From assembly GCA_003142815.1 (NCBI GenBank), contig PLNP01000006.1, positions 81,840-145,839 on the forward strand: 64,000 nucleotides of DNA, written 5' to 3'. The notes under the pieces are model-generated. The model was not told the DNA's origin, made no database searches, and saw only the letters and a program-made list of their open reading frames with translations. Shown piece by piece: positions 6,165 to 64,000 of this stretch; the first letter of the stretch is position 1; each line of letters begins with the position of its first letter. A program made the translations under genes and the position numbers. The stretch comes from Rhodanobacteraceae bacterium. Lineage in GTDB: Bacteria; Pseudomonadota; Gammaproteobacteria; Xanthomonadales; Rhodanobacteraceae.

Positions 6165-6512
6165 CTACGCTTTCTCTTTTCCCGACATCGTGAACCCCTG
6201 ATGCGCTTTGCGTGGGGCGCACCGGCGCGTGTCCGCGAGATCGTCGAAGAGTAGGCCCCATTGGGCGCGCCAGGGGACGTTGCCCGTTCGCGCGAACGGC
6301 GCCGCCGCGACCTCCACGTCGAACCCGAGATCCACGCGATATAGGATCGCGTGCCGCTCGATGAGTTGCCACGCGAGCGCTTCCCAATCGGCGCGGCCGA
6401 GGCTCCAGATTCCATCGGTTTCCAAACGGCCCCCGGCTTCCCAATCATGTCGATCAACTTCGCGCCCGCTTCGCCAGCGGGGATCTGAAGGGGTGAAATC
6501 AGAACACGGTCC
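6165..6512 (-). pseudogene. frameshifted hypothetical gene remnant
   Basis: Two minus-strand frames each contain protein-like stretches that would join through a frameshift near 6420-6440. The upstream part reads 'LTLDRVLISPLQIPAGEAG' and on through IDMIGKPG. The downstream part reads 'WSLGRADWEALAWQLIERHA' and ends in TMSGKEKA. Residue composition in these parts is less arginine-rich than in the other frames. No family is recognised. The 5' end is antisense to the recombinase fragment, so it may also be truncated there. Confidence 0.3.
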
Positions 6513-6977
6513 AGCGTCAACGTGTCGTTCCTGCGATGGAACCAGATCGACATGAGCCGTCGCGTAGCGTGGATCCATCCGGACGAGGCCAAGGCTGGAC
6601 GAGCCATTGGCGTTCCATTGAACGAGGACGCGCTCGACGTGTTACGTCGGCGCTGGAGTCGACACGGGGACTACGTGTTTACGTACAAGGACAAACCCGT
6701 CAACCAGTGTTCGACCGCGGCATGGAAGCGTGCGTTAGAACGGGCCGGTATCGAGAAGACGTTTCGCTGGCACGACCTCCGGCATATGTGGGCGTCGTGG
6801 TATGTACAGAGCGGGACACCGTTGCAGGAACTGATGGAGCTGGGCAGTTGGGCCAGCTACGACATGGTCCTGCGCTATGCGCACCTCGCGGCGGATCATC
6901 TGCACGGGGCGGCGAGTCGACTCGACGACATGTTTTTGACACACAAGCCAAAATTGCAACTCGTGAAATTGACGTAA
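6513..6977 (+). pseudogene. tyrosine recombinase (phage integrase), C-terminal fragment
   Basis: The frame carries the C-terminal catalytic half of a phage-type integrase. 'FRWHDLRHMWASW' gives the H-x-x-R box, and 'LGSWASYDMVLRYAHL' contains the W and the catalytic tyrosine followed by H. The N-terminal arm and core DNA-binding domains and the first catalytic arginine region are missing: an in-frame TGA lies at 6486-6488 and homology begins near 'VNVSFLRWNQID'. A GTG at 6522 could start a 151-residue product. It ends 14 bases from the 3' end of tRNA-Phe, the usual place for an island integrase, and marks a decayed element. Confidence 0.8.
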
Positions 6978-6991
6978 GTCGCTGAAAATAA

Positions 6992-7067
6992 TGGTGGCCG
7001 GGGACGGAATCGAACCGCCGACACGGGGATTTTCAATCCCCTGCTCTACCAACTGAGCTACCCGGCC
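6992..7067 (-). tRNA. tRNA-Phe (GAA)
   Basis: A 76-base cloverleaf on the minus strand. The acceptor stem GGCCGGG pairs with CCCGGCC, the D-arm is TAGCTCAGTTGGTA, the anticodon stem-loop is GGGGATTGAAAATCCCC with anticodon GAA, the T-arm contains GGTTCGATTCC, and CCA is encoded. Its 3' end faces the integrase fragment. Confidence 0.97.
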
Positions 7068-7369
7068 AAGCGTGCTGCGTAACGTGCGGTCGGTGGCTGA
7101 CCGCAGCGGGGCCGCGTATTAGAGCCGCGGCGTGCGGTTACGTCAAGCTGGGTCGCTGGCGCTCTGGACCGCGCACGACAAACCCTGACTCGTCCGCATC
7201 GGTCCACCGTGCGACGGCCTGATGAATACCAATAGCGTCGCGTTCACGTCGCGCAACGGTCATCTCGCTGTCGGCATCGACTACGTCGAATTTGGCAGCC
7301 GCATTGCAAGAGCGCGTCGATCCGGGCCTGCGCGCCGTCCTTCATACAACAGCCGATAGAGGACAGCCC
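7068..7369. other. intergenic region upstream of tRNA-Phe and the DUF6491 gene
   Basis: About 300 bases between two divergently oriented units. It should hold the tRNA-Phe promoter (minus) and the promoter for the DUF6491 gene (plus). I cannot point to convincing -35/-10 pairs. A GC-rich imperfect palindrome (GTGCGGTCGGTGGCTGACCGC) lies near 7084-7104. No gene-like frame is visible. Confidence 0.4.
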
Positions 7370-7774
7370 ATGAAATTTCGGATGGCGGCAACGCTTGTGC
7401 TCGGCGTGCTCGTCGCGGGCCTCGCCCACGCAGACACGCGCGCGACGCAGCAAAAGAATCTAGAAAAATACACGCCTTATCTGGAAGCGCCGGTGGATGG
7501 CTTCACGTTCTGGTCGCTGTACAAATGGCAGCTGGTCGGACCGCAGAAGGTCGTCGTCTGGTCGACGATCAAGGATGCCTATCTGCTCACGGTCGAAACG
7601 CCGTGCCCGAGGCTCGAATGGGCGCACGGCATCGGCCTTACCTCGGCGCAATCGCACCAGATCAGCAAGCGCCTCGACTTTGTGACGCTCGCACGCGAGC
7701 GTTGTCGCATCGAGGAAATCCAGCCGATTGATACCGCGCAGATGGCGAAGGATCGCCGCGCGGCGGACCAGTGA
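7370..7774 (+). CDS. DUF6491 family secreted protein
   Basis: A 134-residue protein with a signal peptide (MKFRMAATLVLGVLVAGLAHA) and a compact domain matching DUF6491: 'YTPYLEAPVDGFTFW', VVVWSTIKDAYLLTVETPC, and near the C-terminus ERCRIEEIQPID. The two cysteines are well placed for a disulfide. Function is unknown. The ATG at 7370 has GAGGA 6 bases upstream and starts the signal peptide; an in-frame start 26 codons earlier has neither feature. It converges on yggX with only 9 bases between the stops. Confidence 0.75.
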   Translation: MKFRMAATLVLGVLVAGLAHADTRATQQKNLEKYTPYLEAPVDGFTFWSLYKWQLVGPQKVVVWSTIKDAYLLTVETPCPRLEWAHGIGLTSAQSHQISKRLDFVTLARERCRIEEIQPIDTAQMAKDRRAADQ

Positions 7775-7783
7775 GCGCCGCGC

Positions 7784-8059
7784 TCAGCCTTGCTCGGGCG
7801 CGACGTAGCCGGCCGGTGTTTCCGAGCCTTCGCCGAAGAAATACTTTTCCATTTCCGCGGCGATGAATGCGCGCGTTTTCGCATCGAGCGGATTGAGGCG
7901 GTTCTCGTTGATCAGCATGGTCTGATGCACGAGCCATGCTTGCCAGGCTTCCTTCGAGACATGCTCGTAGATGCGCTTGCCGAGCTCGCCGGGCCATGGA
8001 GCGAACGCGAGGCCCTCGGCTTCGCGATGGAGTTTTACGCAGTGGACGTTGCGGGCCAT
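7784..8059 (-). CDS. yggX: Fe(2+)-trafficking / oxidative damage protection protein YggX
   Basis: A 91-residue protein matching YggX across its whole length: VHCVKL near the N-terminus with the conserved cysteine, '[19 protein letters not shown]', '[16 protein letters not shown]' and a C-terminal MEKYFFGEG. YggX is a small cytosolic protein that protects Fe-S clusters and affects iron availability during oxidative stress. Its start overlaps the end of mutY by 25 bases, so it is translated from the mutY transcript. The mutY-yggX pair is conserved in gammaproteobacteria, and MutY is itself an Fe-S enzyme. Confidence 0.95.
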
Positions 8060-54860: not shown

Positions 54861-57800
54861 TCAGGCAGGGCCGGTGCCGGCGCCGAACACCAGCTCGGCC
54901 GCGAGCACGCCATCGAGTTCCTGCAGCGTCTGTTGCAACGCTGCGCTGGCGCGCACGCGCCACTGCGCACCGAGTTCGATTTCGGCGTGACCGGTCGCGT
55001 TGCGGAACGCAAGGCGCACCGGCGTGTTGCCGCCGCGGTGGGCGGCGAGCGCGTGTTCGAGGCGCGCGACGAAATCCGCTTGCACGCCATTCAGGCGCAG
55101 GCGCAACACTCGCGCGCGGCACTCGCAGGCCGCTTCGATCGTCGAAACCGCTTGTACACGCAGTTGATACCCGCCGGAAAAATCGTCGATGCTGACTCCG
55201 CCCTCGAAGACCAGGATCGCGTCGCGCGTCAGCAGTGGCCCGTATTCCACCCAGCTTTCGCGATAGAGCACGGCCTCGAATTTGCCAGAGAAATCCTCCA
55301 AGGTCACGAACGCGCGCGAGTCGCCCTGCTTGCGGATGGCGCTCACGGAGCCTGCCAGCGTCATTGGCTGCAGGTCGGCGAAGCGACTGCGCCGCTCGCT
55401 TTGGCGGGGTCGGTAGTGCTTTTCGATCTCGCCGATCGGGCAGGTCGTGACCTCGGCGATCAGCTCGCGCCAGGCGTCGGTCGGATGGCCGGAAAGATAG
55501 TAGCCGAGCGTTTCGCGCTCCCCGGCGAGGCGCTGCGCGATCGGCCAGTCCTCGACGTCGGGAAGGCTCTGTTTCGGCGCCGCCGGACTCGCCGCGCCGA
55601 ACATGTCGTTCTGCCCGGCCAGTGCGTCGCGTGCCTGTTGTTCCGCCGCGCGCATCGCTTCGGGCAATTGCGTCATCAGGCTGGCGCGGTTCTTCGCGAG
55701 CGCGTCCATCGAGCCACTCAAGATTAGCGCCTCGAACACGCGCTTGTTGAGTTTTTGCGAATCGATGCGTTGGCAGAAATCGGTCAGATCGGTGAACGGC
55801 CCCCGCTGGCGTGCCTCCACGATGCTCTCTACCGCACCGCGGCCGACGCCCTTGACCGCGCCGAGGCCGTAGCAGATCGTCTTCTCGTCGGTCGCCTCGA
55901 ACAGGTAGCCCGACACCGTGATATCCGGCGGCAGCACCTTCAGGCCGAGCGCGCGCGCTTCGCCGAGGAAGTTCACGATCTTGTCGGTGTTGTCCATGTC
56001 CGCGGACAGCACCGCGGCCATGAACTCGGCCGGGTAGTGCGTTTTCAGCCAGGCCGTCTGGTACGAGACCAGCGCGTACGCGGCCGCATGTGACTTGTTG
56101 AAGCCGTAGCCGGCGAACTTCTCCATCAGGTCGAAGATCGCGTCGGCCTTGCGTTCGTCGGCACCATTTTTTGCGGCGCCGTCGCGGAAGATCGCGCGGT
56201 GCTTGGCCATCTCGGCGTGGACCTTCTTGCCCATCGCGCGGCGCAGCAGGTCGGCGCCGCCGAGCGAGTAGCCGCCGACGATCTGCGCCATCTGCATGAC
56301 CTGTTCCTGGTAGACCATGATCCCGTACGTCTCGCGCAGCACGGGCTCGACGCGCTGATCGGGATACTCGATCGGCTCGCGGCCCTGCTTGCGTGCGCAG
56401 AAACTCGGGATCAGGTCCATCGGACCCGGGCGATACAGCGAAACCAGCGCGATGATGTCCTCGAAACAGTCGGGCTTGGCATCCTTGAGCATGCCCTGCA
56501 TGCCACGCGATTCGAGCTGGAACACCGCAACCGTGCGCGCCTTCTTGAGCAGGTCGAACACGGCTGGATCGTCGAGCGGCAGCTGGGCGAGATCGAGCGC
56601 GGTTTCATTTTTCCGCGAGCGGCGCGCGTTGATCGCCTTGACCGCCCAGTCGATGATCGTCAGCGTGCGCAGCCCGAGGAAGTCGAACTTGACCAGGCCC
56701 ACTTTTTCGACGTCGTCCTTGTCGAACTGGGTGACCATGCCCTCGGCGCCGTTTTCCGAGAATAGCGGTGCGTAGTCGCTGAGTGGCCCCGGTGCGATGA
56801 CGACGCCGCCGGCATGCTTGCCCGCGTTGCGCGTGAGGTCTTCGAGCTTCAACGCAAGATCGACCAGCTCTCTGACCTCGTCATCCGATTCGTAGAGCGC
56901 CTTGAATTCGGCAACGACCCGTTCGGGTTCCTTGCGCGATTTTTCCGAGCGGCCGAGCGCGTCTTCCAGTCCGAGATCGAGCGGCACTTTCGGAATCAGT
57001 TTCGCGATGCGGTCGACCTGGCCGTAGGGCATGCCGAGTACGCGACCGGTGTCGCGTAGCACCGCCTTCGCGGCCATCGTGCCGTAGGTGATAATCTGGC
57101 TGACGCGGTCGCGACCGTATTTGCGCGAGACGTAATCGATTACCTCGTCGCGGCGGTCCATGCAGAAGTCGACGTCGAAGTCGGGCATCGACACGCGTTC
57201 GGGATTGAGGAATCGCTCGAACAGCAGACCATAACGCAGCGGATCGAGGTCGGTGATGCCGAGGGCATACGCGACCAGCGAGCCCGCGCCAGAACCGCGG
57301 CCCGGCCCGACCGGGATGCCGTTCTTCTTCGCCCAGTTGATGAAGTCGGCGACGATCAGGAAGTAGCCCTCGAACCCCATCTGCACGATGACGCCGAGTT
57401 CGGTATCGAGACGATGCGCGTAGTCGTCGCGGTTGAACCCCGCTGCGGGACCGTGCGCGGCGAGACGCTTGGCGAGTCCTTCGCGCGACTGCGCGCGGAT
57501 GAAACTGTCCAGCGTGTGTTCGTCCGGTACCGGGAATGCGGGCAGGAAATACGTACCGAAGCTGAGCTCGAGGTTGCAGCGTTTGGCCAGCTCGACCGTG
57601 TTCTCGACGAGTTCCGGCAGGTCGGCGAACAGCGCCGCCATCTCCTGCGGCGATTTGAGGTATTGCTCGGGCGAGTAGTCGCGCGGGCGTTTCGGGTCGG
57701 CGAGGACGCGGCCGGCATGGATGCACACGCGCGCCTCGTGCGCCTCGAAATCCTCGCGCGCGAGGAAGCGCACGTCGTTGCTGGCGACGATCGGAAGATC

Positions 57801-58370
57801 CAGTTTTGAGGCCAGATCGAGCGCACCGGCGAGAAACACTTCCTCGTTCGTACGCTTGATGCGTGCGACTTCCAGATACAGGCGGTCGGGAAAACGCGTA
57901 TGCCACCAATCCGCGCGCGTGCGCGCGGCGTCGTCGCGTCCGGCCAGCAGCAGCCGACCGACATCGCTGTCGTGGCCGGCGAGTGCGATCAATCCGGTAT
58001 TCGCCGTATCCAGCCAGCCTGCGTCGATCAAGACGCGGTCGCCATGCCGGTTTTCGGCGTACGCACGCGAGAGCAGCCGCGAAAGGTTGAGATAGCCTTC
58101 GCGGTTCTGGCAAAGCACCGTCAATCGCTGCGGTTGGCCGCGATCCTCGGGGTCGGCGAGCCACAGATCGCTGCCGGCGATCGGTTTGACGCCGGCCGCT
58201 TCCGCAGCCTTGTAGAACTTGACCAGCGCGAACAGGTTGCTCTGGTCGGTCAACGCGACCGCCGGCATGTCTGCGCGCGCGCACCCGGCGACGAGACCGG
58301 CGATGCGGATCGTCGAGTCGGTCAGCGAATATTCGCTGTGCACGTGGAGGTGGACGAAACCGGAAGGCAT
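54861..58370 (-). CDS. dnaE: DNA polymerase III subunit alpha
   Basis: A 1169-residue replicative polymerase. It contains an N-terminal PHP domain ('[17 protein letters not shown]'), the polymerase core with the catalytic aspartates in '[19 protein letters not shown]', the thumb/fingers '[20 protein letters not shown]', a helix-hairpin-helix region with '[20 protein letters not shown]', and an OB-fold near '[20 protein letters not shown]'. Length is normal. The ATG at 58370 begins the PHP domain; the frame stays open further upstream but with arginine-rich sequence. Confidence 0.97.
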
Positions 58371-58492: not shown

Positions 58493-60196
58493 CTATTCGG
58501 CGAACGCGTGCAGCTGGCCGAACACGTGGGCGAGGTAGGAATCCATCACGGCCGGACTCGGGCAATCGACGAAGCGCCCCTCGCAGCGCTCGCGCAGTCG
58601 CGTATTCGCCTCGAAATAGGCGTCCTTCGGGAGTTCGGCGACATCGAGCAGCAGGCCGGCGAGATACGCAAGGTCGAGCACGGCGTAGTGCGGGAACGGC
58701 GCACGATCGAAGTTGCTGTCGATCCGGTAGTAGGTGACTTCCCACGCCTCGCTGTGCAATTCCTGCGGCAGGCCGCTCGGCAGCTTCATTTCCAGTCCGT
58801 CGAACGACGGATGGTGGTCGCCGAAATGCACGAGCACGGTCGGCTTGCCGTCGGCGAACAGGAAGCGCCGCAGCTCGGCGATCGCGCCGTCCGATTCATG
58901 CAGGCGAAAAAGATAGGTGCCGAGATTGCGGTTGATGCGTGCATCGAGCGCTGGCAGTGGCGACTGGTTCCACGGGGGTGGCAGCGCGTCGAGCGGATGA
59001 TCGTGCGGGCCGTGCTGGTGCATGGTGAGGATCATGAAGAAAAGCGGGCGATCATCCTTGGCACGCTCGCGGCGCTGGACCTCCTCGAAGCTGTGCACGA
59101 CATCGGCGTCGGTGCTTTCCCAGGCGAGGTGAAGATCGGTCGCATCGTAGAATTCGTCGAAACCGTAGTCGGCATACGCGTTACCGGCACGCACGAAATC
59201 GCGCGGCATCGGATAGATCGCGATGGTCCGGTAGCCGAGCGCCTTGAGCTGGCGCGGCAAGCTTTCGCGCATGCGCGGCACGAGGTTGTATGGCGCATAG
59301 ACACCGGCCGGACCGAACAGCGTGTGCGGCATTCCAGCGAAGAACGCAAATTCGCTGGTCCAGGTGGCGCCGCCATAGGTATGCACCCGGAGCGGCCCGG
59401 TCGCGTTGGTATCCGGGTCGGGTTGGAACATCGGGAACGTGCAGCGCGGCACATTGCAGATGGCCCATTGGTGCGGATTGAGCGTGCTCTCCTCGATCAC
59501 CGTGACGAGATTCGGATAACGCGTCGGCGCTGTCGGCGCAGCAATGGTCGCCGAACCCCAGTCGTAGTGCGCAGCCGCCGCCAACGTGTAGGCAGGGATC
59601 GTCACATGCATGCGTGAGAGTGAACTCAGGAACGCGGTGGTCGGATTGAGCTTCGCGTGGTCGATGAAATCCCAGGTACGGACGTCATACACGCCGCGAA
59701 ACGGCCCCTGCGGCCACGCGGTGAATGCGAGTGGCAGCAGTGCGAGCAATGAGAAAGCGCCGCGCCGCCACAGCGCGCGCCCGCGCCACCAGCCGGGCGA
59801 TTCGAGACGCCAGACGAGGACCGCCAGCGCCAGCGCGCCAGCCAACGCCGCTGCGCATTTGTGCCACATGGCCGGATAATGCGCGATGACATCGAGCGTC
59901 GTTGCATCGAGAAAATAGCGCAGGTCCGGGCCCATCAAGGGTTCGTGCAGATAGGCGAGCTTGAGCGATCCGGCGAGCCAGACGCAGCCGGCGAGCGCGC
60001 CGGCGACCAGAAAGCCCAAACCGACGCGTCCCCACAGGGTCACGAGAAAAATCGCGAGCGCGAGCGCGAACGAGGCGCAGAACACGCGATCGAGATCGTC
60101 GGTTTCCGCCGGCAGCAGACCCCACAGGACGATGGTGAACGTGGCCAGGCCGAGTGCGGCGGCGACCACGCGCAGGGGCTTGCGTTTTCCGTCCAT
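58493..60196 (-). CDS. LtaS-like membrane sulfatase/phosphoglycerol transferase, copy 1
   Basis: A 567-residue protein with about five membrane helices in the first 160 residues and a periplasmic alkaline phosphatase-superfamily domain. Motifs in order: VIEESTLNPHQW (~235), 'GGATWTSEFAFFAG' with the expected nucleophile threonine (~275), '[17 protein letters not shown]', and 'VHFGDHHPSFDG' metal ligands (~456). It ends with a cysteine pair in RCEGRFVDC. LtaS-type enzymes move phosphoglycerol from lipids; in Gram-negatives, relatives modify periplasmic glucans or LPS. It is co-directional with dnaE and is a paralogue of the gene at 60945-62675. Confidence 0.83.
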   Translation of the reverse strand: MDGKRKPLRVVAAALGLATFTIVLWGLLPAETDDLDRVFCASFALALAIFLVTLWGRVGLGFLVAGALAGCVWLAGSLKLAYLHEPLMGPDLRYFLDATTLDVIAHYPAMWHKCAAALAGALALAVLVWRLESPGWWRGRALWRRGAFSLLALLPLAFTAWPQGPFRGVYDVRTWDFIDHAKLNPTTAFLSSLSRMHVTIPAYTLAAAAHYDWGSATIAAPTAPTRYPNLVTVIEESTLNPHQWAICNVPRCTFPMFQPDPDTNATGPLRVHTYGGATWTSEFAFFAGMPHTLFGPAGVYAPYNLVPRMRESLPRQLKALGYRTIAIYPMPRDFVRAGNAYADYGFDEFYDATDLHLAWESTDADVVHSFEEVQRRERAKDDRPLFFMILTMHQHGPHDHPLDALPPPWNQSPLPALDARINRNLGTYLFRLHESDGAIAELRRFLFADGKPTVLVHFGDHHPSFDGLEMKLPSGLPQELHSEAWEVTYYRIDSNFDRAPFPHYAVLDLAYLAGLLLDVAELPKDAYFEANTRLRERCEGRFVDCPSPAVMDSYLAHVFGQLHAFAE

Positions 60197-60342
60197 GGTG
60201 TCCTGACCCAAGGCGTTCATTACGACAGACGTGTCACACGGCCGTAACGTCGCCGCGCATGGTGCATCGGGTCGACGCAGCGCGCCAGCTCGCAACCGCG
60301 CCGCGGGGAGTTCCGCCGTGACAGCCTATTGGATTGCGGGCG

Positions 60343-60948
60343 TCAGAACAATTCTGGCAGGAGCAACCGCTGCACGGGCGCGAAGCAGCGCCGGTGAAGG
60401 GCGCACGGCCCAAGCGTGACGAGCGCTTGCAGGTGTTCGGGCGTTGCATAGCCCTTGTGGCGCGCGAACCCGTAACCCGGGTGGAGCGCGTCGCATTCGC
60501 GCATGATCGCATCGCGCGTGGTCTTGGCGAGGATCGAGGCCGCGCTGATCGCCGCCTCGCTGGCATCGCCGCCGACGATCGCACGTGCCCGACAGGGCAG
60601 CGCCTTCGGCAGCCGGTTGCCATCGATCAGCGCCAGCGTCGGCAGGATCGATAGCGCGAGCAATGCGCGCTTCATGCCGATCAGGGTCGCGCCGAGGATG
60701 TTCAGCTCTTCGATCTCGTCCACATCGACGCTGACGATCGAGAATGCCAGCGCTGCGGCGCGAATCCGCGGCGCCAGGACATCGCGCTGCGCCTCGCTCA
60801 GTACCTTGGAGTCGGCAAGCCCGGTCAGCAGTCGGCGCGGATCGAGAATGACCGCGGCGACAACGACCGGACCCGCCAGTGGGCCGCGTCCTGCTTCGTC
60901 GACACCGGCGATGAGTTCGTTCACGCGCGTGGCATCGGTTGTCCTCAT
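60343..60948 (-). CDS. rnhB: ribonuclease HII
   Basis: A 201-residue enzyme that removes RNA from RNA-DNA hybrids. It has '[20 protein letters not shown]' (catalytic DE pair), '[18 protein letters not shown]', '[20 protein letters not shown]' and '[20 protein letters not shown]'. Its start overlaps the stop of LtaS-like copy 2 by 4 bases. In other proteobacteria it usually follows lpxB directly; here a transferase gene lies on each side of it. Confidence 0.96.
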
Positions 60949-62675
60949 TCGTGCAGGTCGCGCAGTTTCGTGAATATGTAGTCGTGATACGAAGCCAGCA
61001 TCTTGAGATCCTTGCAGTCCAGATAGCGACCCTTGCAGCGCTCGCGCAGCAGCGTGTTGGCCTGGTAGAAACCGTCCTTCGGAATGCCGGCGACATCAAG
61101 CACGAGCGAACCAAGGAACGCGATGTCGAGGACCGCATAATCGAAGCGCTGGCGCACCGGGAAGTTCGACTTCAGCATGTAGTAGGTGACCCAAAGGGAG
61201 GTGTGCGCGGCTACCTTCGGCACGACCTTCGGAATCACGTTGATCGCGCCGTCGAACGAGGGCTGGTGGTCGCCGAAATGCATCAGCACGGCGGGATGCT
61301 CGCCGCCGAGCAGGAATTTTTCGAGATCCGCGAGCATCGCGTCCGACTGCTGCAGGCGCTCAAGGTAGTTGCCGAGATTGAGGTTCAGCCAGTCGTCAAG
61401 CGCCTGCGGCTTGAACGTGCCCGGAAATAGAGGCTGGTTGTAAGGCGCTGGCAACTGCGCGAGCGGAACCATGTGCGGACCATGCTGATGCATGGTCAGC
61501 ATGAACACGAACAGCGGCTGGTCCGGGCGCACGCGTTTTTCGTCGGCGTAGACGCGCTCGAAGACCTTGAGCAGAGCGGCGTCAGGGCTCTCCCAACCGA
61601 GCCCGTATTCGGTGCCATCGTAGAACGCGTCGAATCCGTAATAGTCGTAGGCGTTGCGTGCGTTGAGGAAATCGCCGCTCATCGGATACACCGCGATCGC
61701 GCGGTAGCCGGCTTTCTTGAATGTCTTGGGCAGCGTAAACGCGACGCGTGGCGCCAGATTGTAGGGAGCGTACAGCCCGGCATTGCCGAACAGTGTATGC
61801 GAGAGGCCGGTCAACAGCGAAAATTCGCTGGTCCAGGTGCCGCCGCCGAAGGTGTGCACGCTCAGGGGCCCATGCGCGCGCGTGTTCCTGTCCGCTTCGA
61901 ACATGTGTCGCGTGCAGACCGGCACCGTGCAGAGCTTGAGGATGTGCGGATCGAACGTGCTTTCCTCGAGGACCGCGACGACGTCCGGCCGCGTGGGTGG
62001 CGCGAGCAGCGGCCGGTCGAGTTTCCACGGGATGCTGCGATCGACATCGGGCGGAATCGTCGGCTCGTCGATCACGGTGTCGTTGAACGAGGTGAAGAAG
62101 TCGGTGATGAAGCTCTTGTCGTTGACGGTGATCCACATCGGCTTGTTGAACACCGCGCTGAACGGCCCCTTGGGCGCAAGGCAGGTCATCAACAGGCAGG
62201 CTGCGGCGACCGTGCCGAGCAGCCGCGCGCCGATGTGCAACGCGCGCGGCCGCGTCACCAACAGCGCAGCGCGTTCGCCGAAAAACGACAGCAGCAACAG
62301 GAGCGGAATCAGGATCAGCGCGGCGACGCTGACGCCGAGCAGCAGCGGGTAGTGGGTGATGACCTCGATGGTGCCGAAGTTGAAGTATTCGAGATCCGGC
62401 GCCAGCAGCGGCGTCGTCAGATACATGAACTTGAGTGTGCCGGCGATCTCGATCGCGCCGAAGAACAAGGCGACGACCAGCAGCGAGAATGCGGCGCGGG
62501 CGCTCGCGAACAGCACCAGCAAGAGCGATACCAGGACCAGCATCGCCGCAAAGACCTTTTCGATCGCGGTGTGCTCGCCGAGCGGGCCGAACGCGAACAG
62601 CGCAACGAATGCGAGCAACGCGATCATGAGCAGCAGCGCGGTTCGGTAGTGATGGAAAGGCGCTGGGATATTCAT
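60945..62675 (-). CDS. LtaS-like membrane sulfatase/phosphoglycerol transferase, copy 2
   Basis: A 576-residue paralogue of the gene at 58493-60196 with the same plan: five N-terminal helices, [12 protein letters not shown] (~235), '[20 protein letters not shown]' (~274), '[15 protein letters not shown]', '[15 protein letters not shown]' (~465) and a terminal RCKGRYLDC cysteine pair. A second cysteine pair (C-x4-C, KLCTVPVC) follows EEST in both copies. The ATG at 62675 begins '[20 protein letters not shown]'. It lies downstream of lpxB on the same strand and is coupled to rnhB, so a role in lipid A or envelope modification is plausible but inferred. Confidence 0.85.
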
Positions 62676-62742: not shown

Positions 62743-64000
62743 TCAAGCGCGCGTCGCGGTATCGCGTGCTGCCGGCTCGACCGATGCCGTACAGATTGTC
62801 GGGTCACCGATCAGTTCGGCGATCGCCGTCGCGGCGCTTCGGCTCGCATCGTGGCGAAGTTCGAGATGCAGACGGCGGTATTCGGAGAGCAGGCCGGGAT
62901 CGATTTCGCGGCTGCGCAACGCAGGCAGCAGAGCATGTGCGAGCGCTTCGGGCGTGCATGCGTCCTGCATCAGCTCGGGGACGAGATCGCGGCCAGCAAG
63001 AACATTCGGCAACGCATAGCGTTCGACCTTGAGCAGGCCGAGGCCTTTGACGATGCGGTAGGTCAATGGCGCGACGCGATAGCCGACCGCCATCGGCCGC
63101 TTCGCGAGCATCGCTTCGAGCGCGGCGGTGCCAGAGGCGAGCAGGACCGCGTCGGCGGCGATCATTGCTGCATGCGCACGGCCGTCGATGACGGTCACGG
63201 AAAACGGGAGAGGAGAATCGGGAGTCGTCGACGCAATGGGCGTTTCCGATTCCCGATTCCCGATTCCCGCCTCGCGCAGCAGGGTCTCGAACGCGGCACG
63301 GCATGAGCGATTCGCCATCGGGGCGATCACGCGCAGGTTCGGGATTTGTTGCGCGAGCAAACGTGCGGCGCCAAGGAAATCCGCGCCGAGTCGCGCGATC
63401 TCGCCGAGCCGGCTGCCTGGCAGGATGGCGAGCACCGGGCCAGCCGGCGGCAATCCCAGCGCAGTGCGTGCGGCCTGCCGATCCGGATCGAGCGCAAACG
63501 TATCGGCGAGCGGGTGTCCGACAAAACGCGCGTCGACGCCGTGACGCGCGTAGATCGGTGGCTCCATCGGAAACAGGCAAAGCACGCGATCGGCGCTGCG
63601 GCCGATCTTCGCGGCGCGCTTTTCGCGCCACGCCCAGACCGAGGGGCTGACGTAGTGCACGGTCGCGATGCCGGCGTGTTTCAGCTGGCGTTCGAGGCCG
63701 AGATTGAAATCCGGTGCATCGATGCCGATGAATGCGTCTGGCTGGAAGTCGACTGCACGGCGGGCGACGTCGCGGCGTATGGCGAGCAGGCTCGGCAGAT
63801 GGAGCAGTACTTCGACCAGCCCCATTACCGCGAGCTTCTCGGCCGGATACCATGCGTCCAAACCCGCCGCGATCATGCGCGGGCCGCCGACGCCGGCGAA
63901 CTGCGCGGCGGGAAAACGTTCGCGTATCGATTCGATCAGGTCCGCGCCGAGCAGATCGCCGGAGGCCTCACCGGCGACGAGAACAAAACGCCGGGAGACG
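62743..64000 (-). CDS. lpxB: lipid-A-disaccharide synthase, 5' end beyond window
   Basis: The frame runs to the right edge, where it still reads 'RFVLVAGEASGDLLGADLI', the LpxB N-terminus, so only a few codons are missing. It also has 'FIGIDAPDFNLGLERQLKHA', 'HYVSPSVWAWREKRAAKIGR', 'LPGSRLGEIARLG' and 'AVLLASGTAALEAMLAKRPM'. It joins UDP-diacylglucosamine and lipid X in lipid A synthesis. About 22 extra residues rich in S, P and T lie just before 'VTVIDGRAH'. They are encoded by GATTCCCGATTCCC-type intergenic repeat sequence (about 63198-63270) and look like an in-frame insertion in a surface loop. Confidence 0.95.
   Translation of the reverse strand, partial: VSRRFVLVAGEASGDLLGADLIESIRERFPAAQFAGVGGPRMIAAGLDAWYPAEKLAVMGLVEVLLHLPSLLAIRRDVARRAVDFQPDAFIGIDAPDFNLGLERQLKHAGIATVHYVSPSVWAWREKRAAKIGRSADRVLCLFPMEPPIYARHGVDARFVGHPLADTFALDPDRQAARTALGLPPAGPVLAILPGSRLGEIARLGADFLGAARLLAQQIPNLRVIAPMANRSCRAAFETLLREAGIGNRESETPIASTTPDSPLPFSVTVIDGRAHAAMIAADAVLLASGTAALEAMLAKRPMAVGYRVAPLTYRIVKGLGLLKVERYALPNVLAGRDLVPELMQDACTPEALAHALLPALRSREIDPGLLSEYRRLHLELRHDASRSAATAIAELIGDPTICTASVEPAARDTATRA
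63198..63270. repeat. 'GATTCCCGATTCCCG' repeat inside lpxB
   Basis: GGGAGAGGAGAATCGGGAG at the left and TTTCCGATTCCCGATTCCCG at the right are inverted relatives with a ~30-base middle. This is the same word family as the intergenic repeat at 12946-13067. It stays in frame through lpxB. Confidence 0.75.

Follow-up and report, generated by a model that had tools for sequence, protein, structure and literature searches.

Two putative LtaS/GacH-like membrane transferases flanking rnhB in a Rhodanobacteraceae genome: an old duplication with altered pocket residues

Two similar membrane enzymes encoded on either side of rnhB, close to what is presumably lpxB, raise the question of how such a pair arose and what each copy does in the cell envelope. 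The window analysed here, a stretch of 64,000 nucleotides from a Rhodanobacteraceae bacterium, has the gene order lpxB-C2-rnhB-C1-dnaE with all five genes on its (-) strand. The gene that we take from its sequence to be lpxB (lipid A disaccharide synthase, 62743..63999) runs off the window, and its stop lies 67 bases before C2 (60945..62675; ATG start, 576 aa), whose 3' end overlaps rnhB (ribonuclease HII, 60343..60948) by 4 bases. After rnhB, C1 (58493..60220; ATG start, 575 aa) follows at a distance of 122 bases, and another 122 bases separate C1 from the ATG at 58370 of a gene that, likewise from its sequence, we take to be dnaE (54861..58370). In one locus (L129), genes that we take to be lpxA-, fabZ- and lpxD-like lie upstream of lpxB. 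Start and stop codons were checked, and coordinates and codons agree with the C2-rnhB overlap and the position of C1 just before dnaE described in the first-pass annotation. Patterns resembling promoters or terminators did not exceed their frequency in shuffled sequence, and an Rfam search gave no match at or above a gathering score.

The two proteins each match Pfam PF00884 (E 4.2e-21 and 1.1e-19; 76 and 71.3 bits, with a curated cut-off of 25 bits) and share 43% identity over 551 residues (E 1e-134), far above chance. The motifs EEST, GG[GA]TWTSEF, HQHGPH and GDH[HQ]PSFDG lie at equivalent positions in C1 and C2, two cysteine pairs are positionally matched, and the four cysteines together with the catalytic residues are retained in all 41 sequences compared (11 C1, 19 C2 and 11 sequences labelled D, the window copies included). 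LtaS-type transferases carry membrane helices N-terminal to the catalytic domain, and four hydrophobic segments precede residue 170 in each of the two proteins; low-confidence structure models, built from three-row alignments (mean pLDDT 44.9 and 37.8), also place helices in the N-terminal region. The earlier description of two related LtaS-superfamily membrane enzymes flanking rnhB, with a shared motif series and matched cysteines, is thus borne out, and comparison with GacH, LtaP and LtaS agrees with LtaS-type membership. On these grounds C1 and C2 appear to belong to the LtaS-GacH branch of PF00884.

A PDB search with a 30-member profile matched eight distinct sequences, namely GacH (8.5e-21), LtaP (3e-11), VP1736 (1.2e-9) and LtaS (from 1.4e-8), with nothing else up to E 10. 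The best match, the phosphoglycerol transferase GacH (PDB 5u9z, 5wcx, 6dgm), covers profile positions 219-499 and aligns in its ES, GGGT, H.P and GDH motifs, but it has HP......NR where C2 has YP......NAR and lacks cysteines at the first pair position in the alignment. GacH adds to a cell-wall polysaccharide, and its organism and acceptor differ from those of C1 and C2. E. coli OpgB, phosphoglycerol transferase I, appears to be a remote relative only, since its profile match is weak (139 columns, E 4.4e-5, probability 69%) and BLASTP of C2 yields no meaningful alignment. The Pfam matches of C1 and C2 include no phosphoethanolamine-transferase domain (EptA_B_N), and EptA or MCR chains were absent from the PDB matches to E 10; identity with EptA is not supported, on the latter ground and because EptA_B_N (PF08019) was not found in the genome.

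The predicted catalytic threonine of C2 (T280 in GGGTWTSEF, 61836..61838) aligns with that of the GacH GGGT motif, and that of C1 (T286 in GGATWTSEF, 59363..59365) aligns with T280; both (-) strand codons were checked. Glu and Thr were mapped through the GacH alignment, for which the residue roles are established, and Asp, His and the His416 place through the LtaS alignment, with roles taken from PMC9131456 and PMC4192460. The threonine nucleophile and the Glu, Asp and His metal ligands are each kept in 56 of 56 aligned sequences, as the first-pass annotation had proposed, and the loss it had named as counter-evidence is not seen at sequence level. LtaS and LtaP are in one superfamily with C1 and C2, and the family keeps both the Asp and His metal ligands and the residue at the His416 place (56/56), but the places of LtaS His347, Trp354 and Arg356 hold different residues in every one of the 56 members, so that two of the three LtaS glycerol-phosphate contacts (His347, Arg356, His416) are replaced throughout. 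This replacement of the His347 and Arg356 places, as read from the alignment, appears to be a new observation, and because the three places are changed, a group other than phosphoglycerol may be donated. In Listeria, Ser486, Asn488 and His489 form a second glycerol-phosphate site; its places, located by counting from GDH, are mostly not conserved (Ser 0/56, Asn 6/56, His 1/56; none of the three in any of the 41 C1, C2 and D rows), and hence there is no sign of chain building as in LTA polymerisation.

Within the family, the surroundings of the Arg356 place separate C1 from the rest. A basic residue at +1 is found in all 19 C2 and all 11 D sequences and in 12 of the 15 outgroup members, but in only one of 11 C1. 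Six of the 11 C1, the window copy among them, have an Arg at -1, and some C1 have an Arg or Lys four places before, so the change in the C1 pocket looks less clean than an outright loss. At a separate site, Asp occupies the position in 11/11 C1 versus Lys or Arg in the other 45 of 45 sequences.

The phylogeny of these 56 rows (11 C1, 19 C2, 11 D and 15 outgroup; the outgroup being Neisseria-like, Proteus and Salmonella-plasmid relatives) includes the C1 of genome G031 and leaves out the partial C1 of G014. C1 and C2 each form a single clade (support 96/89 and 98/99), and the two are sisters with moderate support (92/85); an earlier tree with another outgroup of three rows, one of them an antisense frame, gave weaker values (C1 59/85, C2 63/86). 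Each clade holds its own copy from another genus, which argues for one old duplication, and separate duplications in two genera were rejected, as a topology uniting both g17 copies had a p-AU of 1.25e-6. The tree thus places the duplication before the genus. The first-pass annotation had suggested duplication around rnhB followed by divergence and had asked for a tree; the copies fall into sister clades and not into unrelated families, and their common origin is older than the genus and not local.

We consider it reasonably probable that C1 and C2 are a pair of LtaS/GacH-type head-group transferases that arose by this one duplication, with the ancestral pocket kept in C2 and diverged in C1. 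Both would be metal-dependent enzymes of the inner membrane. By analogy with characterised relatives, the threonine would attack a membrane phospholipid, most likely phosphatidylglycerol, a covalent phospho-head-group intermediate would form on it, and an acceptor would then receive the head group on the periplasmic side. C2, with its putatively ancestral pocket residues, would be part of a tight and possibly co-transcribed lpxB-C2-rnhB run. Sequence change in C1 runs at about twice the rate of C2 (identity lower in 36 of 36 pairs from nine genomes; distance ratio 2.1), and together with its changed pocket residues this suggests that C1 may work with another acceptor or donor.

As to the acceptor, lipid A or LPS core on one hand and a surface glycan or protein on the other seem about equally possible, position alone being weak evidence. 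That C2, and perhaps C1, add a phospho-head-group to lipid A or LPS core, with co-expression with lpxB serving this, is a rather doubtful reading if taken by itself. It draws on six genera of the bacterial family that have C2 between lpxB and rnhB, on the rnhB overlap in 15 of the 19 loci (the window and 14 of 18 fetched ones), and on EptA_B_N not being found in this genome, which implies that no standard EptA is available for head-group addition. However, the lpxB association is limited to this lineage: in ten related genera the related enzymes are located away from lpxB, mostly beside genes presumed to be cpdB-like (10/11 loci) and nagA-like (8/11), in family f180 (12 genomes) and N. gonorrhoeae each neighbour is common to two loci at most, and the genes that come after lpxB itself, rnhB, dnaE and accA, have no part in LPS synthesis. 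These shifts of location, with constant catalytic residues, speak for an acceptor at the surface (polysaccharide or glycolipid) or a secreted protein, as for GacH, the best solved relative by sequence, and with a chance landing beside lpxB in an active gene run, a reading that we hold tentatively as a fair possibility short of an even chance. Outgroup neighbourhoods contain what are presumably glycosyltransferase-like genes (L072) and, at L073, genes resembling cellulase and galU. Among neighbours annotated unsystematically, however, none related to glycans or pilin recurred constantly, and neighbours of family members differ between lineages. Neisseria pilin phosphotransferase B (PptB) transfers phosphoglycerol onto a pilin serine (PMC8445170), but the Neisseria family member is probably not PptB, as the published pptB forward primer fits another PF00884 locus of the Neisseria record better (18/20 versus 15/20 at the family member); the reverse primer is best at a third locus (18/24) and does not discriminate, and neither primer has an exact match.

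It is improbable that C1 and C2 are phospholipid hydrolases or envelope sensors like LapC/YejM instead of transferases. YejM is LtaS-related and tied to LPS, and EptA/MCR-1 and LapC/YejM have a fold class in common with LtaS-type enzymes (PMC7576196; lapC annotation), but hhalign of the family profile against E. coli LapC gave a probability of 0.3% and no LapC-named chain appeared in the PDB search to E 10; identity with LapC is not supported. Equally improbable is that C1 is a decaying copy heading for loss, as its faster evolution and its apparent absence from 5 of the 16 genomes in the genus (two of the five only 77-80% complete) might suggest. Both copies are under purifying selection, with dN/dS in two species pairs of 0.20 and 0.35 for C1 and 0.17 and 0.25 for C2; moreover, C1 keeps the catalytic residues and shows the Lys/Arg-to-Asp change in all 11 sequences, and two species have C1 without C2. 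Returning to the transferase pair, C2 might carry out the ancestral transfer alongside lipid A synthesis and C1, with its basic pocket residue shifted or gone and a fixed acidic residue acquired, a new one, with two phospholipid-derived groups or two acceptors, which we regard as unlikely; this reading is weakened by the Arg near the Arg356 place in over half of the C1 sequences.

The modification of a periplasmic glycan that had also been proposed found no backing, given the remoteness of OpgB and a search for OpgG (PF04349) that gave no match in this 99.99% complete genome, with a positive E. coli control. An OpgG-dependent periplasmic glucan is therefore an unlikely acceptor here; OpgG is present in G003 and G009, two genomes of the genus that carry C2, and its absence is not a simple family-wide rule.

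Beyond the genus, a class-wide search scoring at most three candidates per genome gave at least 15 of 369, and a scan of named genomes one locus. In 16 of 16 genomes without C1 and C2, fewer than 400 bases separate the lpxB and rnhB matches, and no gene of this kind intervenes. A scan of viral contigs yielded no relative and a phage search two short matches only, and among the literature titles listed none dealt with the pair.

Gram-positive bacteria are where LtaS-type enzymes have been studied well, and many Gram-negative members are named by similarity alone. C1 and C2 offer a natural experiment in which a single gene was duplicated around rnhB, both copies appear catalytically intact by alignment, and the pocket was altered in only one. 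If the pair did transfer two groups or serve two acceptors, this would be a Gram-negative envelope decorated by two LtaS-like duplicates whose donor pocket has been rewritten.

The first-pass annotation had proposed an LtaS-like pair around rnhB, and this is a true and well-described feature. The two predicted membrane transferases C1 (58493-60220, minus strand) and C2 (60945-62675, minus strand) are 43% identical, keep their catalytic positions and lie in the minus-strand order lpxB-C2-rnhB-C1-dnaE-accA. The names lpxB, dnaE and accA, rnhB excepted, are presumed from sequence, as are those of the lpxA-, fabZ-, lpxD-, skp-, bamA- and rseP-like genes further upstream of the block. In the window C2 has a 4-base overlap with rnhB, and the gaps in the rest of the block are 67, 122 and 122 bases. 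The overlap is found in 14 of 18 fetched C2 loci (15 of 19 with the window counted), the genes lying 16-74 bases apart in the other four, with start codons taken as the script's pick nearest the expected place. In 17 of the 18 loci, lpxB and C2 are spaced by -4 to 397 bases. In G007 (locus L045) the lpxB frame could not be closed: as read by the script it continues beyond the expected stop, which may reflect a frameshift, a misassembly or an artefact of the script. Gaps at C1 are longer than at C2, and no excess of promoter-like or terminator-like patterns was seen. We infer co-transcription.

Both proteins match only PF00884 in Pfam (E up to 0.1), no NCBIfam model scored above its cut-off for either, and a PDB search with a 30-member profile returned GacH, LtaP, VP1736 and LtaS chains and no others up to E 10. 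The genome holds five PF00884 matches (C1, C2, one on contig C50, one on C19 and a weak one on C10), four of them above cut-off. The C50 match (78441-79955; about 6442-7956 of locus L130) is a third LtaS/GacH-like paralogue. It is 30% identical to C2, carries the LtaS-like pocket form HPHSRSFWNR and lacks the C-terminal cysteine pair; of the 37 host-family genomes, 26 have matches of similarly weak identity (28-36%).

The proposed duplication followed by divergence was borne out. In a tree of 56 proteins, C1 (support 96/89, 11 rows), C2 (98/99, 19 rows), a third type found in other genera of the host family, D (100/100, 11 rows), and the outgroup (100/100, 15 rows) form separate clades, with C1 and C2 as moderately supported sisters (92/85). 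The two copies of G031, from another genus (g17), each group with their own type, and forcing them together was rejected (p-AU 1.25e-6), so a single duplication around rnhB predates the split of these genera. The evolutionary rate of C1 is about 2.1 times that of C2 (36/36 pairs), and C1 is under purifying selection (dN/dS 0.20 and 0.35 in two species pairs).

The neighbourhood search covered 61 genomes, 16 of them from the window's genus, where C2 occurs in 14, C1 in 11 (one of them incomplete at a contig end) and both in nine. No C1 was found in five members of the genus and no C2 in two of its species, whose lpxB and rnhB share a 4-base overlap; subsequent loss is the most economical explanation for such gaps. 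In two species C1 lies 5-7 kb from rnhB (L042 6442-13569 in G004; L050 7042-12065 in G012), separated by what we take to be gltB/gltD-like genes and a TIR-like protein, respectively, and neither fetched stretch contains a dnaE match. Among 21 other genera of the family, sampled by one genome each, C2 was found in five (C1 too in one), D elsewhere in ten and neither in six; C and D types never co-occurred. Wherever D or none of these genes was found (16 genomes), lpxB adjoins rnhB (matches <400 bases apart), with no C1 or C2 match between them or within 1.5 kb flanks; the fetched stretch covers the dnaE start in eight. Four loci lacking both copies (L136, L138, L141 and L144) carry about 1-1.3 kb of other sequence between rnhB and dnaE, at C1's place, with no C1 or C2 match. 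Besides its full rnhB match, G035 has a partial one about 1 kb away that is interrupted by a stop codon (contig C18, 554528-554743).

Further afield, 24 genomes from other families of the order gave only partial matches (29-36% identical), in three. A class-wide draw, with up to three candidates scored per genome, yielded matches in at least 15 of 369 genomes; among those scored, the match extends to the profile end only in G029, G310 and the window genome. For f180, the family to which G310 belongs, 12 of 61 drawn genomes have a match reaching the profile end; this family is probably Neisseriaceae, since N. gonorrhoeae nests inside it in the tree. N. gonorrhoeae, Proteus mirabilis and a Salmonella plasmid also carry relatives, whose identity across the catalytic domain and C-terminus is 30-33%. 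Four plasmid-collection records (NZ_CP119142.1, NZ_OL790811.1, NZ_CP064203.1 and NZ_CP069303.1; 2.2-4.6 Mb) are of chromosome-like size.

The nucleophile and Glu were located through the GacH alignment and other positions through that of LtaS, whose residue roles follow PMC9131456 and PMC4192460. In the alignment, 56/56 members conserve the His416 place as well as the four catalytic positions. Unlike LtaS, all 56 have Tyr, Phe, Ser or Thr at the His347 place, Leu, Ile, Val or Tyr at that of Trp354 and Ala or Gly at that of Arg356. Directly after the Arg356 place, every C2 (19/19) and D (11/11) protein has Arg and 12/15 outgroup members have Lys, and this basic residue may substitute for Arg356, shifted by one. 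Only 1/11 C1 proteins have a basic residue there, and likewise 1/11 retain the Asn found two places earlier. Because that Asn place holds Arg in 6/11, including the window's C1, the pocket may still receive a basic residue from its opposite side. At the position of C2 K502, C1 proteins carry Asp (11/11) and the others Lys or Arg (45/45).

A periplasmic glycan had been suggested as one acceptor. A search of 61 genomes found the glucan protein OpgG in eight, including C2-bearing G003 and G009, but not in the window genome or the other 52, and E. coli OpgB is only a remote relative; an OpgG-dependent glucan is therefore unlikely here. LPS is a possible acceptor through the lpxB link, which is restricted to one lineage. 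The 11 D loci (including L056 6268-7944) have what we presume to be cpdB-like (10/11) and nagA-like (8/11) neighbours, with a presumed SIS-domain gene (6/11) and second alkaline-phosphatase-superfamily gene (5/11) nearby. Any neighbour of the f180 and N. gonorrhoeae members is common to at most two loci. The N. gonorrhoeae member (L072 3401-5053) is probably not PptB, and is divergent from genes we take to be gmhB-like and 1-acylglycerol-phosphate acyltransferase-like.

C1 and C2 represent an uncharacterised branch of a known kind of enzyme with an altered pocket. We read C2 as the conserved enzyme and C1 as the copy whose substrate pocket has changed.
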